Of a DNA stretch of 64,000 nucleotides, positions 25,235-31,292 are shown one piece after another. The notes beneath the pieces were generated by a model. That model was not told the DNA's origin. It made no database searches and was given only the letters and a program-made list of their open reading frames with translations. Both the position numbers and the translations under genes were made by a program. The stretch comes from Enterovibrio norvegicus DSM 15893. Lineage in GTDB: Bacteria; Pseudomonadota; Gammaproteobacteria; Enterobacterales; Vibrionaceae. The stretch spans positions 1 through 64,000 of the forward strand of contig NZ_FOWR01000011.1 in the NCBI RefSeq assembly GCF_900115495.1. Direction: 5' to 3'. Numbering within the stretch: the first letter of the stretch is position 1; each line of letters starts with the position of its first letter.

Positions 25235-26656
25235 ATGGTGCGATGTTGCCTTCTTATTCTTTCCCTTTGCTTATCATTTCGTGCATCAGCGGTGCCTGTG
25301 AATACGCTTGAAGCCATGCTTCCTGCGGGCAGTCAACTCGCCCTCTCGGTTTACAACATCGACAGTAAACAGCAGATGGTTGCGCTGGATGATCAGATTC
25401 TACTTCCCCCTGCCAGTACTCAAAAAGTCGTCACCGCGCTCGCCTCTGCACTTTATCTTCCTAAAGACTTCACCTTCACTACACACGCATATCGCTCAGG
25501 TAAAGACGTTATTTTTTCATTCTCTGGCGACCCAACGTTAACGCGTAAAAACATCCAATCCTTACTGAAGGACATCAAGACAGCAGGGGTCACCCGTATC
25601 AATGGTGATGTGTGGCTAGATGGCAGCATTTTTACTGGTTATGAGCGCGCAGTCGGCTGGCCATGGGATATTCTGGGGGTCTGTTATAGCGCCCCATCCA
25701 CTTCTATTGCTCTTGAGCGAAACTGTGTTCAGGGTTCGATTTACAGCGAAAAAGGAAAAACAACGACGCGTGTCTTTGTGCCAGAGCATCAACCTATTTC
25801 CGTCACCACTGATGCACTCGCTGTGACAAAAGACGAGATGAAAACAACACATTGCGACCTCGAACTGCACTACGAAAACAACAATAGCTACAAATTAACC
25901 GGTTGTTTACCCCACAGAAGCAAACCCTTACCACTTAAGTTCGCGGTTCAAAACCCTGAGAAATACATGCGCGATGTACTTTCAGCGGAGCTCAAAAAGG
26001 CAAGAATTGGTCTCACAGGACAAATCCGCATTGGTAACCCCATCAGCAATGCACCAAAACAACGCATCGCCACGCACACCTCGGCACCTCGCGACATATT
26101 GCTTAAGAAAATGCTCAAACGTTCAGACAACCTGATCGCAGACAATCTGTTAAAAACACTGGGGCATCAGTATTTCAACCAACCGGGCTCTTTCTCTAAC
26201 GGCGCTGCAGCCGTGAAAGCCATCATGCAAGAACGTGCCAATATTGATTTAACCCACGCCGTAATCGTTGATGGCTCTGGGCTTTCAAGAAACAACCGTA
26301 TGTCTGCAAAACAATTGATGGATGTCATCCACTACACCTACTCTCATCAAGATTTAGGTGTATTAGCGATGCTGCCAGTATCCGGCGTTGATGGCACGTT
26401 GAAGTATCGTAGTAGCGTGAGGAATGCGCCTTTGAAGCAAAGGTTAAAAGCCAAGTCTGGCTCGCTCTACGGGAGTTACAACTTAGCTGGCGTGATAAGA
26501 AATGATAAGGGGCAGGATGTGTTAGTGGTGCAATTGGTCACCAACTACCACATCCCTAAAACAGACGAGCGCCCAGCGACCCTCGCCAGCCCCATTACGC
26601 AATTTGAGCGCGAATTGTATCAAGCCTTGCTTACATCAAGTCTAACCACGCGTTAA
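25235..26656 (+). CDS. dacB: Penicillin-binding protein 4, D-alanyl-D-alanine carboxypeptidase/endopeptidase DacB
   Basis: A periplasmic class C PBP that trims peptidoglycan peptides and cuts cross-links. 473 residues (E. coli 477), with a signal peptide cleaved after ASA (about residue 19). The serine site SxxK is S61-T-Q-K64, the SDN motif lies in RSDNLIADNL, and the KTG box is KSGS at about 407-410. The start is the ATG of MVRCCLLIL after GGAGCC; the TTG four codons before is not used. Its last 26 bp overlap the convergent mgtE-like gene. Confidence 0.95.
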   Translation: MVRCCLLILSLCLSFRASAVPVNTLEAMLPAGSQLALSVYNIDSKQQMVALDDQILLPPASTQKVVTALASALYLPKDFTFTTHAYRSGKDVIFSFSGDPTLTRKNIQSLLKDIKTAGVTRINGDVWLDGSIFTGYERAVGWPWDILGVCYSAPSTSIALERNCVQGSIYSEKGKTTTRVFVPEHQPISVTTDALAVTKDEMKTTHCDLELHYENNNSYKLTGCLPHRSKPLPLKFAVQNPEKYMRDVLSAELKKARIGLTGQIRIGNPISNAPKQRIATHTSAPRDILLKKMLKRSDNLIADNLLKTLGHQYFNQPGSFSNGAAAVKAIMQERANIDLTHAVIVDGSGLSRNNRMSAKQLMDVIHYTYSHQDLGVLAMLPVSGVDGTLKYRSSVRNAPLKQRLKAKSGSLYGSYNLAGVIRNDKGQDVLVVQLVTNYHIPKTDERPATLASPITQFERELYQALLTSSLTTR

Positions 26657-27482
26657 CTGTCATGAAATAAATCGCCATTCCGCTGATATCGACAACGGAT
26701 GCCAATACAGGGCTCACAAGCACAGCGGGATCGAGGCGAAATTTCGTCGCAATGAGCGGGAGCACACCTCCAATGGTGGTGGACAACAGAACTTGTATGA
26801 TCAGCGCAATGCCAATAGCCATAGCAATGTCATCTAGCGAAAAACCCGATGGCAGTGCGGCGCTGTCACTAAAGAGCATCACCCTTGCCATGATGACGGC
26901 AGCCAGTGCAAACGCGATGACGACCGCCACGCGTACTTCCTTCCACATGACGCGTAGCCAGTGAGACGGGCGCACTTCGTTCATTGCCATGGCGCGAACA
27001 ACTAACGTGGCCGCTTGTGAGCCTGCATTCCCCCCCGCAGCCGCAACCACGGGCATATAAATCGCCAGTAAAATCAGCTGGCTGATCGAATCCTCGTAAT
27101 GAGAAATGATCAGCCCCGATACAACGCCCAGTAACGCAAGACCAATGATCCAACCAATGCGCTGTCGGACATGTGACATGACTGAATTCGTTAGATAGTC
27201 CCCATCAGGCTCTACTTCAGAGTTAATCAAACCCAGCCCTGTCGCGATTTGCCTTACCCTAATCGCATCGCCAGTTTCAGCCAGATCATCAAGTAGCTTT
27301 CTGACCAAGCCCAACGGACAACAATTCAGTACACCAATCGCTTCAGCCACAGGCATTACAGACAGCAACCGAATTCTGTCTTCTCCACTGTGAATAAGAA
27401 ACGCGTTTTTTGCTGCTTCAATTTCATGAGCAGCGACATGATTGTGCTGGTATTCCAGCAAGGTGGCATTCATTACCGCCAT
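26631..27482 (-). CDS. Short MgtE-like divalent cation transporter, no CBS domains
   Basis: A 283-residue inner-membrane protein. Residues 1-100 are soluble and resemble a remnant of the MgtE N-domain. Residues 105-283 hold about five transmembrane helices, including the MgtE pore signature PVVAAAGGNAGSQAATLVVRA (shown in part as GGNAGSQ, about 150-156). The CBS pair that senses cytoplasmic Mg2+ in standard MgtE (about 450 residues) is absent, so gating must differ. Mg2+, Mn2+ or Co2+ transport is likely; the ion is unknown. The start MAVMNATL has GGAGG at the right distance. It is preceded by a long structured leader with a small ORF, suggesting control at the RNA level. Convergent with dacB. 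Confidence 0.8.
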   Translation of the reverse strand: MAVMNATLLEYQHNHVAAHEIEAAKNAFLIHSGEDRIRLLSVMPVAEAIGVLNCCPLGLVRKLLDDLAETGDAIRVRQIATGLGLINSEVEPDGDYLTNSVMSHVRQRIGWIIGLALLGVVSGLIISHYEDSISQLILLAIYMPVVAAAGGNAGSQAATLVVRAMAMNEVRPSHWLRVMWKEVRVAVVIAFALAAVIMARVMLFSDSAALPSGFSLDDIAMAIGIALIIQVLLSTTIGGVLPLIATKFRLDPAVLVSPVLASVVDISGMAIYFMTVNAWLDLM

Positions 27483-27963
27483 AGCGAACCTCCCGATTGG
27501 CTAGTGCCAGACATTATCTGGTGAGGGTAACGACCATGAAAATACGTGTTTCAACAGCATGTTGTTCTAGAGAAATAAAACAGCAAATGTTCGCGCACAG
27601 TGATTACTCACTACGCAAGATTGGAAACCTAAAGGTTTCTAGACGTATTTTCACTCAGAATATTGGGGAAGCACTGGGAATGGAAAAGCACAGATCATTC
27701 CGACCGGGCAGTCGAAATGTGAAAACACACTAATGTCACCGCCGGACTTGCTGGCCTCCCTGACAACTCGGAGGATGGTCGATAACGTTCATGGTTTTCT
27801 CCAAAAGTGCCGCAGTATTGCGACGGAGCAATACTACGCCTCTTTCACGCGATAAAAAACATTTACCCACGGTTAAATTGTGAAAATTTAATAACACGCC
27901 ATGCGCTGATTTATCAGCAAAATACAACACGATATTGGCATTGCTTCCGTAAATAAATGGCAC
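27483..27963 (-). promoter_or_regulatory. Long structured leader of the MgtE-like gene
   Basis: About 480 nt between the carB terminator and the MgtE-like start with no conventional gene. On the minus strand it holds, in order: a GCTGAT/ATCAGC hairpin (27918-27905); a hairpin with 8-bp arms AGTATTGC/GCAATACT (27835-27814); an 18-codon ORF (27792-27736) with its own GGAG; then an 11-bp inverted repeat (TGAAAATACGT at 27537-27547 with its complement at 27643-27653) that would close a stem over three hairpins (27624-27639, 27599-27612, 27552-27564); and CCAGA/TCTGG (27507-27521) close to the gene's ribosome site. It looks like a regulatory RNA. It lacks the M-box Mg2+ riboswitch consensus as I remember it, so the class is unassigned. 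Confidence 0.6.
27736..27792 (-). CDS. Candidate leader peptide before the MgtE-like gene
   Basis: An 18-codon ORF, MNVIDHPPSCQGGQQVRR, with GGAG six bases before its ATG, inside the structured leader. Internal complementary segments (CCTCC with GGAGG, GCC with GGC) could pair only when ribosomes are absent or stalled. The HPP and QGG elements could slow translation. Salmonella MgtL, a proline-rich peptide before mgtA, is a precedent for a Mg2+-transporter leader ORF, but no sequence similarity is claimed. Translation is unproven. Confidence 0.45.
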   Translation of the reverse strand: MNVIDHPPSCQGGQQVRR

Positions 27964-27988
27964 AAAAAAGCCCGCCATAAAGGCGGGC
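27964..27988 (-). terminator. carAB terminator
   Basis: GCCCGCC (27970-27976) pairs with GGCGGGC (27982-27988), with a T-run on the minus strand. A second hairpin without a T-run, GTCGGC/GCCGAC at 28007-28023, lies nearer the carB stop. Confidence 0.88.
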
Positions 27989-28055
27989 AAGGAGGTTGTT
28001 ATCTAGGTCGGCTTCCTGCCGACTCATTGATTATGTTTTTACATTTTTTAAGAAA

Positions 28056-31000
28056 TTACGCTTTACCGTATTTCTCAACAACGCGTGCGTGAAGCTCTTG
28101 TACTGAGTTCACTTTCGACATATCTACTGCGGCATGCGCCATACAGGTAGCAAACGCCGCATTTAGCGTTGTGGTGTAACTTACTTTCTCAGCCAGTGCG
28201 CCACGACGAAGTACTTTTGAGTCTTCAATCGCTTGGCGGCCTTCAGTGGTGTTCACGATGTAGCTGTATTCGCCGTTCTTGATTCGGTCAAGAATGTGAG
28301 GACGACCTTCGTGTACCTTGTTCACTAGGCGAGGGTTAATGCCCGCTTCACCAAGAACAACAGCAGTACCGTGTGTCGCATCCAGTTCAAAGCCAAGCTT
28401 GATAAGCTTCGCGGCAAGGTCAACAACACGCTGCTTGTCAGTATTACGAACAGACAGAAGTGCGCGACCTTTTTCACTGTATTGCTTACCACAGCCAAGA
28501 TCCGCTTTCGCAAACGCTTCAGCAAATGTGTCACCCACACCCATGACTTCACCGGTCGAGCGCATTTCTGGGCCCAACAGTGGGTCAACACCTGGGAACT
28601 TGTTGAACGGCAATACCACTTCTTTCACAGAGTAATACGGTGGAATGATTTCTTGTGTGAAACCTTGTGACTCAAGCGATTGGCCAGCCATAACACGCGC
28701 TGCAATTTTAGCCAGTGGTGCACCAGTAGCTTTCGATACAAATGGCACCGTACGTGCAGCACGCGGGTTCACCTCAATCAGGTAAACTTCGCCGTCTTTT
28801 ACTGCAAACTGCGTATTCATCAAACCACGAACACCCAATTCAAACGCCAGTTTTTCAACTTGGCGACGCATCTCGTCCTGAATGTCTTGGCTCAAGGTGT
28901 AAGCTGGCAGTGAACATGCAGAGTCACCTGAGTGAACACCCGCTTGTTCGATGTGCTCCATGATGCCGCCAATCACAACGCGTTCGCCGTCACAAATAGC
29001 ATCCACATCCACTTCGGTCGCATCATCAAGGAAACGGTCAAGCAGTACTGGTGATTCGTTAGAAACGCTTACCGCTTCATTGAAGTAACGGCGCAAGTCG
29101 TTTTCGTCATACACGATTTCCATTGCACGGCCACCCAGAACATACGATGGACGAACAACCAGAGGGAAACCAATCTCTTTTGACTTATCAATGGCTTGTT
29201 CCATTGTCGTCACTGTCGCATTTTCTGGTGTTTTCAAACCTAAACGGTCAACCGCAGATTGGAAACGTTCACGGTCTTCCGCACGGTCAATCGCATCTGG
29301 GCTCGTACCAATGATTGGCACACCAGCAGCTTCTAGCGCACGCGCCAATTTCAGTGGCGTTTGACCACCGTATTGCACGATAACGCCCTTAGGCTTTTCA
29401 ACACGAGCGATAGCGAGCACGTCTTCAAGTGTTACTGGCTCGAAGTACAAACGGTCAGACGTATCGTAATCGGTAGAAACCGTTTCAGGGTTACAGTTAA
29501 CCATGATGGTTTCATAGCCATCTTCACGAAGTGCTAGTGATGCGTGTACACAGCAGTAATCGAACTCGATACCTTGACCGATACGGTTTGGACCACCGCC
29601 CAATACCATGATCTTGTCTTTATCTGTTGGGTTCGCTTCACACTCTTCATCGTAAGAGCTGTACATGTACGCGGTATCAGACGAGAACTCTGCTGCACAG
29701 GTATCCACGCGCTTGTAAACAGGGTGGATGTCGTACTGGTCACGAAGCTTGCGGATTTCGTTTTCGCTCACACCCAATAGTTTGCTCAAACGTGCATCAG
29801 CGAAGCCTTTGCGTTTTAGTTTGCGCAGTACATCTTTGTTTAGACCCGCGAAGCCATTTTCTTTGACTTCAGCTTCGATTTTGACGATGTCTTCAATCTG
29901 TACCAAGAACCAGCGGTCAACATTGGTCAGCTTAAATACACCATCAACCGACATGCCTGCACGGAAAGCATCAGCGATGTACCAAATACGCTCAGCACCG
30001 GCATCTTTCAATTCGTGACGAATCTTGGTCATTGCGTCTGGTTCATCCAGATCGACCATCTCATCAAAGCCTGTCGCGCCAACTTCTAGGCCACGCAATG
30101 CTTTGTGAAGCGATTCTTGCTGGTTACGACCAATCGCCATGACTTCGCCCACAGATTTCATCTGAGTGGTCAGACGGTCATTCGCACCAGCAAATTTTTC
30201 GAAGTTAAAACGAGGGATCTTAGTCACAACGTAATCGATGGTTGGTTCAAATGATGCTGGTGTTGCACCGCCAGTGATGTCATTCATCAACTCATCAAGG
30301 GTGAAACCAACGGCTAGCTTCGCTGCCACTTTTGCAATCGGGAAGCCTGTTGCTTTCGATGCTAGCGCAGAAGAGCGAGATACGCGTGGGTTCATCTCGA
30401 TGATAACCATACGGCCATCTTTCGGGTTGATACCAAACTGAACGTTTGAGCCGCCGGTTTCTACGCCGATTTCACGCAGAACCGCTAGCGATGCGTTACG
30501 CATCAATTGGTATTCTTTGTCGGTCAGTGTTTGTGCTGGCGCCACAGTAATAGAGTCACCCGTGTGGATGCCCATTGCATCAAAGTTTTCGATGGCACAT
30601 ACGATGATACAGTTGTCGTTCTTGTCGCGAACAACTTCCATTTCGTATTCTTTCCAACCGATCAGAGATTCATCGATAAGAAGTTCGTTGGTTGGAGAAA
30701 GATCCAAACCACGACGACAGATGTCATCAAACTCTTCTTTGTTGTACGCGATACCACCACCGGTACCACCCATGGTAAAAGAAGGACGGATGATGCAAGG
30801 GAAACCGACCATGTCCAAAACTTTGTAAGCTTCTTCCATCGTTTTCGCTGTGTCTGCGGTTGGACATTCCAAACCGATAGACTTCATTGCTTTGTCGAAG
30901 CGCGAACGGTCTTCTGCTTTATCAATCGCATCCGCCGTTGCACCAATCATTTCGACGCCGAACTCAGCCAGTACACCGTGCTTTTCAAGTTCAAGCGCAC

Positions 31001-31292
31001 AGTTCAATGCCGTTTGACCGCCCATTGTCGGTAGAACCGCATCAGGACGCTCTTTTGCAATGATGTTGCGAACAACTTCCCATTGAATTGGCTCAATGTA
31101 AGTCGCATCCGCCATTTCTGGGTCGGTCATGATGGTGGCTGGGTTAGAGTTCACCAAAATAACGCGGTAACCCTCTTCACGCAGCGCTTTACAAGCTTGC
31201 GCACCTGAATAGTCAAACTCACACGCCTGGCCAATAACAATTGGGCCTGCGCCTAGAATAAGAATACTTTTTAAGTCTGTACGTTTTGGCAT
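28056..31292 (-). CDS. carB: Carbamoyl-phosphate synthase large subunit
   Basis: Makes carbamoyl phosphate from bicarbonate, ammonia (from CarA) and two ATP, for arginine and pyrimidine synthesis. 1078 residues (E. coli 1073). Two homologous ATP-grasp halves (about 1-400 and 550-935) are visible from repeats such as [19 protein letters not shown] and [19 protein letters not shown], and the last 140 residues are the MGS-like allosteric domain that senses UMP and ornithine. carA precedes it by 16 bp in the same operon; the gene ends 68 bp before a strong terminator. Confidence 0.98.

Follow-up and report, generated by a model that had tools for sequence, protein, structure and literature searches.

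Leader open reading frames (ORFs) that are linked to Mg2+ and have a tested mechanism, namely mgtL, mgtQ and corL, come from enteric bacteria, and mgtQ-like ORFs have been noted elsewhere, as far as the available text of the sources goes (PMC8092293, PMC11282234, PMC11552253). At mgtL, slow or aborted translation of proline and acidic codons is described as raising mgtA expression in low Mg2+, via Rho (PMC11282234, PMC11552253). Translation of corL is described as inverse to corA expression, with Rho involved (PMC11552253). In mgtQ, acidic codons promote MgtB production at the ribosome-binding site, and the proline codon is not required according to the accessible part of that account (PMC8092293).

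The locus described here lies in a 64,000-nt stretch of Enterovibrio norvegicus DSM 15893 (contig NZ_FOWR01000011.1), which we call the window. On its minus strand, between carB (28056–31292) and a gene for a short MgtE protein (26631–27482), stands a leader that, judged by its sequence, is genuine and is kept well beyond the window. The first-pass annotation had proposed a structured leader of about 480 nt, and this 481-nt stretch folds better than 100 of 100 shuffles (z −3.76; −2.48 for the predicted transcript alone). All the elements it listed are in the sequence: on the minus strand we recovered the small ORF with CCUCC/GGAGG complementarity inside it, the 11-bp perfect inverted repeat (TGAAAATACGT 27653–27643 / ACGTATTTTCA 27547–27537) and the hairpin near the mgtE ribosome-binding site (27487–27498). 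The assignment of an 8-bp hairpin and the length of the leader need correcting, as set out below.

To choose loci blind to the leader, we searched 296 Vibrionaceae genomes with the MgtE protein. The resulting set of 110 loci (L076–L185) combines 30 taken automatically with 80 picked by hand for spread out of at least 150 places listed, some of which were skipped as already in hand. Fifteen further loci, mostly found first by the ORF pattern, were excluded from the 110. Reducing the set to <90% identity left 67 loci, and the divergent loci L196–L200 were examined apart. Four close relatives were recognized by their MgtE protein match, three Enterovibrio and one Veronia. In a DNA search of 61 genomes, 17 matched, including the window's own, and the small ORF was the most widely shared part. 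The features of the window's copy are as follows.

27988–27970: terminator-like hairpin behind carB.
27831–27836, minus strand: predicted −10 box TAGTAT, with 4/6 matches in the window and conserved spacing.
27809–27824, minus strand: P0, a 5'-terminal hairpin (GUCGC..GCGGC) before the small ORF, in the minimum-energy fold.
27799–27802, minus strand: Shine-Dalgarno sequence GGAG of the small ORF (GGA in 67/67 rows, the next G in at least 90%).
27736–27792, minus strand: small upstream ORF of 18 codons, MNVIDHPPSCQGGQQVRR and a stop, with a homologue in 110/110 loci.
27780–27789, minus strand: P1 5' strand AACGUUAUCG, partner 27741–27732.
27775–27781, minus strand: S0, CGACCAU, the complement of S4, spanning the end of codon 4 through codon 6 (from codon constraint and RNAalifold).
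27774–27770 with 27759–27755, minus strand: P2, CCUCC with GGAGG, inside the small ORF.
27766–27774, minus strand: Pro-Pro-Ser codons CCT CCG AGT, whose CCUCC is also the P2 5' strand.
27754–27760, minus strand: S2, GGGAGGC, in the small ORF, with CCUCC (as P2) or S3 as partner.
27732–27741, minus strand: P1 3' strand CGGUGACAUU.
27696–27719, minus strand: P4 hairpin CAUUUCGAC-UGCCCG-GUCGGAAUG.
27666–27672, minus strand: S3, GCUUCCC, the alternative partner of S2.
27643–27653, minus strand: P5 5' strand, the 5' arm of the 11-bp repeat.
27537–27547, minus strand: P5 3' strand, abutting S4 with one base shared.
27531–27537, minus strand: S4, AUGGUCG, complementary to S0, a motif in 109/110 loci, one of them a variant.
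27526–27530, minus strand: UUACC, which pairs with GGUAA of mgtE (compensatory change in 3/110 loci).
27487–27498, minus strand: mgtE Shine-Dalgarno sequence GGGAGG in a hairpin, AAUC-GGGA-GGUU, whose Vibrio equivalent is nearly invariant.
27473–27477, minus strand: GGUAA, mgtE codons 2–4, the partner of UUACC.
26631–27482, minus strand: short MgtE, 283 aa, with an N-terminal helical domain and a channel domain.

A −10-like hexamer lies 43–50 nt 5' of the small ORF in 110/110 loci against a mean of 43/110 in shuffled sequences, the search range having been fixed post hoc, after the sequences had been inspected. From this putative promoter, transcription is expected to start near 27824. That predicted position is upstream of the elements of the first-pass annotation, which named a start downstream of 27536 as one that would exclude them. 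It would make the leader about 340 nt long instead of about 480, and 27963–27837 would be upstream DNA. The annotation's first hairpin, with 8-bp arms that we presume to be AGTATTGC/GCAATACT (27835–27828 / 27821–27814), does exist in the sequence, but it overlaps the −10-like box TAGTAT (27836–27831); it was probably mis-assigned and lies mostly within the predicted promoter. We rejected it as an RNA element on account of this overlap and of the different hairpin, P0, that relatives conserve: the equivalent of P0 in 35 Vibrio leaders has double changes in all five of its pairs.

The plus strand holds an open frame of 78 aa (27497–27733), antisense to the leader. It was dropped as a gene, the equivalent frame being open for just 4–31 codons in six relatives.

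The small ORF was found by a first regular expression in 105 of the 110 short-MgtE loci and by inspection in the remaining five, which have a GTG start (four loci) or Tyr for His6 (one). Start, frame and stop are kept in 110/110. The peptide reads MN-x-x-D-[HQY]-P-P-S and then varies, to a total of 14–19 residues, with Asp5, Pro7 and Pro8 in every one of the 110 loci; a 15-nt in-frame insertion lengthens it in some Vibrio. The AAC, GAC and AGT codons are likewise invariant throughout, the second Pro codon occurs in each of its four forms, and codon 6 is CAT in 102/110 loci and never CAC. Because the frame is kept and codons are frozen beyond amino-acid need, both the peptide and the RNA seem to be under selection.

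Across the 296 Vibrionaceae genomes, the exact DNA pattern of the small ORF occurs in 190, spanning 7 of 13 genera and never more than once per genome, and a reversed control pattern gave 0 matches. Nearly all pattern-negative genomes are without a strong short-MgtE match (tables compared by eye). We found eight exceptions with an MgtE match at E <1e-50: G116 carries the Tyr variant (L105); G155, G277, G283, G299 and G318 have diverged small ORFs; and in G146 and G253 the best MgtE match lies in frames of 457 and 424 aa, too long for us to count these genomes as short-MgtE counter-examples, G253 having a short N-terminal MgtE match as well.

In divergent loci the peptide core survives the loss of RNA partners. 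L196 and L198 retain a DNPPS core with S4 gone, L199 and L200 retain a DFPPS core (GAT TTT) with a new mgtE start region, and L197, where S4 is gone too, is degenerate, with a CTG-led SNADSPPNS. L199 and L200 come from diverged species with the ORF MQNVDFPPSLNG.. and no clear Shine-Dalgarno sequence before it, an observation that counts against the explanation we favor below.

We then considered the helices. Run unguided on 35 Vibrio leaders, RNAalifold proposed P0, part of P2, P4, S0:S4, UUACC:GGUAA (the mgtE stem) and the Shine-Dalgarno hairpin. In the same leaders the structure made up of P0, P1, S2:S3, P4, the mgtE stem and the Shine-Dalgarno hairpin pairs in 95.7% of cells, against 35–59% when it is slid, and its covariation score is 0.178 vs 0.142 in shuffles, with 0/500 as high. 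RNAalifold found almost no structure (3 pairs) in the 67-sequence cross-genus alignment, a poor result that we think is due to MAFFT misaligning the divergent clades, and anchored tests were used instead. In these swapped-partner tests, whose figures ignore kinship among loci, P1 scored 18.7 with its own partner vs 16.3 with swapped partners (higher in 54/67), S2:S3 scored 23.9 vs 21.3 swapped and 18.8 shuffled (above swapped in 57/67), and P5 scored 18.5 vs 14.7 swapped and 14.6 shuffled (above swapped in 57/66, with p ≤0.05 in 27/66; L088, in which no S4 was found, was left out).

P1 and S2:S3 cross and are mutually exclusive, and both beat their swapped partners. The pair types of P1 differ across loci (AAU:AUU vs GAU:GUC or GAU:AUC), and in the 35 Vibrio leaders one of its pairs has double changes; it is weak in one clade (ACACUACCG), which counts against the favored explanation. 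S2:S3 also has double changes in one pair in the Vibrio leaders. It exceeds shuffles at p ≤0.05 in 29/67 loci, its place in most Vibrio being between +104 and +129, and individually in 0/10 of the Enterovibrio/Veronia loci of the reduced set (L076–L088), the window's copy included. The S3 position, +117 to +124, is shared by L077–L080, L085 and L086. Comparative support for S2:S3 comes mainly from Vibrio. The Vibrio equivalent of P4 has 99.4% of cells paired and double changes in 2/5 pairs. The window's 11-bp repeat is, on comparison with relatives in which different sequences occupy this site or its vicinity, the local form of helix P5; the idea that the repeat belongs to the Enterovibrio clade only was dropped, P5 being supported in those relatives too. 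Linkers between helices differ in length among loci, and some species, including the window's, have an extra hairpin between S4 and the mgtE Shine-Dalgarno sequence. The first-pass annotation would have been refuted by a lack of covariation or ORF conservation in relatives; both the small ORF and several helices are conserved there.

In the window, S0 and S4 are about 240 nt apart. Their pairing is favored by co-conservation and by joint change in L196 and L198; covariation is absent among the 110 loci, in which S0 and S4 scarcely vary. When the S0 and S4 blocks are shuffled, a run of at least eight pairs arises in 52/2000 cases. In 8/110 loci, CAG or UAU at codon 6 weakens S0:S4 and is unrepaired. 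The S4 complement is shortened in four Enterovibrio loci (L080, L085–L087), and L088 has S0 unchanged and no S4 that we could find. The mean partition-function probability is 0.46 for S0:S4 (66 leaders) and 0.58 for the mgtE stem (63 leaders), and the window's minimum-energy fold is without S0:S4.

The mgtE stem would tie the leader to the gene itself. At codon 2 of mgtE, 106/110 loci have G as the third base, whichever of Thr, Ala, Lys or Ser is encoded. Three closely related loci have A at this base and an S4 ending in U, which restores the pair; the fourth non-G locus is L088, and in four loci an S4 that ends in A breaks the pair with the codon-2 G. In the 35 Vibrio leaders the stem is invariant and uninformative. 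The Shine-Dalgarno hairpin, GGUU on its 3' side in the window, is AAUC-GGGA-GAUU elsewhere.

Constrained folding of the 67 leaders with a 30-nt ribosome footprint blocked on the small ORF abolished S0:S4. In this model, which ignores coaxial stacking, the mean openness of the mgtE Shine-Dalgarno sequence was 0.63 without the block and 0.56 with it (a rise of more than 0.05 in 12/67 leaders, a fall in 26). When a 30-nt block was moved stepwise along the leader, release of the Shine-Dalgarno sequence did not peak at the small ORF. We also rejected a simple masking of the mgtE Shine-Dalgarno sequence by the CCUCC of the small ORF: there are 4–5 pairs by eye, and constrained folding is against release.

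Outside the Vibrionaceae, one locus in another family (L187) has a complete leader and mgtE module, in 1 of the 11 genomes there. In it UUACU lies opposite AGUAA and both strands of S2:S3 have changed in concert, so that two helices look compensated by eye. Because the unit is complete there, it was probably acquired by horizontal transfer. The sole other match outside the family in a 394-genome scan of the order (G548) has one mismatch and no mgtE-like frame.

The product agrees with the first-pass reading of an MgtE-like gene: it has the PF01769 channel domain (E 1.2e-32, 113.2 bits vs a cut-off of 27.6), and residues 107–278 match MgtE channel structures. It falls short of the full-length equivalog TIGR00400 (128.3 bits vs 232.75, aligned at 267–446 of 450 only), and Pfam gave no match to MgtE_N or CBS in the short protein. 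An AlphaFold model (22 sequences, mean pLDDT 73.7) predicts five short helices in residues 17–82, after which long helices follow; MgtE structures account for all 7 of its PDB matches below E 0.001, and they fit loosely (rmsd 10.6–11.1). The short MgtE forms a type of its own, frequent among the Vibrionaceae genomes searched. In other MgtE proteins the CBS domain is described as binding ATP and bearing on gating (PMC5529423). Control at the level of the mRNA could replace the CBS domain here.

At several loci (L014, L016, L061, L062, L064, L065, L066, L215, L216 and L217), the leader and small ORF stand before a protein of about 93–131 aa that consists of the N-terminal domain only, often with one apparent C-terminal membrane helix. 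Seven of these loci belong to what we take to be Salinivibrio-like species; the others are in G193, G281 and G254. The seven Salinivibrio-like genes look maintained, because dN/dS is 0.08–0.23 in the 19 of 21 pairs that allowed its computation, some with saturated dS. In G193 and G254 the protein match reads through one stop, so these may be recent truncations. As a separate observation, in G193 and G281 GACCATCCTCCAAGG and GAACAACCTCCAAGT recur as pairs about 1.5–2 kb apart, many per genome; at a guess, they may mark a gene unit present in many copies, for example rRNA operons, and are unrelated to the leader.

How might such a leader work? The first-pass annotation had offered attenuation coupled to peptide translation, and this remains the best fit, with the start codon, Shine-Dalgarno sequence, frame, D-x-P-P-S and competing pairings conserved in the Vibrionaceae. 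We see an even chance that this is a translated leader that controls mgtE by peptide-coupled attenuation and works like mgtL, mgtQ and corL. Comparative data support the ORF, its frame, nucleotide constraint, P0, P1, P4, P5, S2:S3 and the UUACC:GGUAA stem as conserved parts of it. Counting against it are the absence of Shine-Dalgarno release in constrained folding, the lack of covariation in S0:S4, its weakening in some loci and its absence from the window's minimum-energy fold, the chance-level S2:S3 of the window, and the dispensable proline codon of mgtQ. Transcription would begin just 5' of the P0 hairpin, at the predicted promoter. The D-x-P-P-S core of the 14–19 codon ORF would slow or destabilize translating ribosomes when the cell reads it, presumably above all when it lacks sufficient Mg2+ for the ribosome. 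With the small ORF free of ribosomes, its CGACCAUC segment would pair in vivo with GAUGGUCG just 5' of mgtE (S0:S4), bridging the gap between P5 and the stem of UUACC with mgtE codons 2–4 and locking the mgtE start region. P5, S0:S4 and the mgtE stem share one continuous strand and may stack coaxially, and it is this stack that would make the proposed OFF state. A ribosome held on the small ORF would take the S0 strand away and loosen the mgtE start region, so that MgtE would be made when Mg2+ is scarce. The two competing folds would be P1 with P2, or S2:S3 with S0:S4, and the C-rich tract 3' of the small ORF may contribute Rho termination.

A more tentative and somewhat doubtful extension takes the coding sequence of the small ORF as the missing strand of a composite helix, formed by P5, S0:S4 and the mgtE stem stacked together, with the position of the ribosome as the ligand of the switch. 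The leader would be tied to the N-terminal domain and not to the channel, because several lineages retain leader and domain after loss of the channel, and what the leader regulates may be a small protein, anchored in the membrane, that itself governs Mg2+ homeostasis.

Other explanations assign the same elements differently. The small ORF could be mainly transcriptional in its effect: efficient translation would expose the C-rich tract to Rho and stop transcription before mgtE, slow translation would hide the tract, and the fold of the start region would be secondary. Rho control with a leader ORF is described for mgtA and corA, in the available text of two sources (PMC11282234, PMC11552253). 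In our leaders C exceeds G from +60 to +137 in 67/67 (0.28 vs 0.16, changing to 0.20 vs 0.22 further downstream), a composition that may favor Rho. We consider this account unlikely, as it leaves the tie between mgtE codon 2 and UUACC and the near-invariance of S4 unexplained. A riboswitch would also suit the compensatory changes seen in several helices, the alternative folds and the large number of invariant bases. In that case the folded leader (P1, P2, P4, P5 and the S0:S4 bridge) would itself be the direct receptor of a metal ion or small molecule, and the small ORF would play an incidental or secondary part. Against this, the ORF start, frame and stop are kept in 110/110 loci, D-x-P-P-S survives the loss of S4, the linkers between helices vary in length, unlike those of a compact aptamer in our judgement, and no Rfam family reached threshold in window positions 26000–30000 or 14 relatives; on balance we regard a riboswitch as quite improbable.

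Still less probable, indeed very much so, is that S4 and the mgtE start region are the target of a protein or small RNA and that the small ORF is translated without any connection to them. The near-invariance of GGUCGUUACC and of the mgtE start hairpin is what a binding site would show, and L088 retains S0 without S4. Evidence against this account comes from the alteration of S0 in L196 and L198, which have lost S4, from the co-variation of UUACC with mgtE codon 2, and from the presence of the complete unit together in another family. We retain peptide-coupled attenuation as the preferred reading.

A leader ORF frozen in most Vibrionaceae genomes searched, before a transporter of an unrelated family, would suggest a wider origin or spread of the reading of Mg2+ supply by ribosomes. 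The 110 loci, with the losses of S4 and of the channel, form a natural mutational series for studying how a peptide and an RNA fold cooperate, and the ORFs of 14–19 aa and the conserved stand-alone N-terminal domain merit annotation.

Finally, we compared the leader with known systems. A text search, in which subscription papers are thinly covered, gave no earlier account of it among the literature matches listed, and a prior description may exist. The first-pass annotation had judged that the leader resembles neither the M-box nor the mgtA leader, which agrees with the Rfam scan: no family reached its gathering score, and the weak matches (4 in window positions 26000–30000 and 5 in 14 relatives) include no Mg2+ leader family. 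The M-box (ykoK) riboswitch is alike in that it can precede mgtE-type genes, and the one in M. tuberculosis is described as controlling a small upstream ORF (PMC12810186); it differs by the absence of an Rfam match at threshold in the window's stretch or the 14 relatives. The mgtE motif SRC-65-1 of Thioalkalivibrio is also a structured mgtE leader that includes the Shine-Dalgarno sequence and start codon; judging from the available description, by which we set it apart, it is reported from Thioalkalivibrio only and is listed as a strong riboswitch candidate and not as an upstream ORF (PMC11109978).

The leader has three traits of the mgtL/mgtQ/corL type: a conserved short ORF with a Shine-Dalgarno sequence, early proline and acidic residues (Asp5, Pro7, Pro8) and predicted mutually exclusive folds in which strands of the ORF take part, before a transporter whose role in Mg2+ is assigned by family only. 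The corL–corA leader shares with it a leader ORF, there inverse to the Mg2+ transporter gene, and exclusive folds, with Rho; it has a single conserved proline and another transporter family, in the text available (PMC11552253). The mgtL–mgtA leader of Salmonella and E. coli has an early acidic/proline leader ORF, two exclusive folds and a Mg2+ importer downstream. It differs in acting on transcription via Rho and in its EPDP sequence, and the accessible text mentions no role for mgtA codons in the fold (PMC11282234, PMC11552253). The mgtQ–mgtB intergenic leader of Salmonella is alike in its short ORF, destabilizing acidic residues and competing stem-loops. One of its folds hides the ribosome-binding site of mgtB, which codes for a Mg2+ transporter, and the mgtE stem may act similarly here; as described in the available text, it lies inside the mgtCB operon and encodes 8 aa with Asp2/Glu5 and one dispensable Pro (PMC8092293). 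The present ORF, in contrast, stands in a 5' leader before a gene of another transporter family, encodes 14–19 aa with D-x-P-P-S, and has a strand predicted to pair about 240 nt away.
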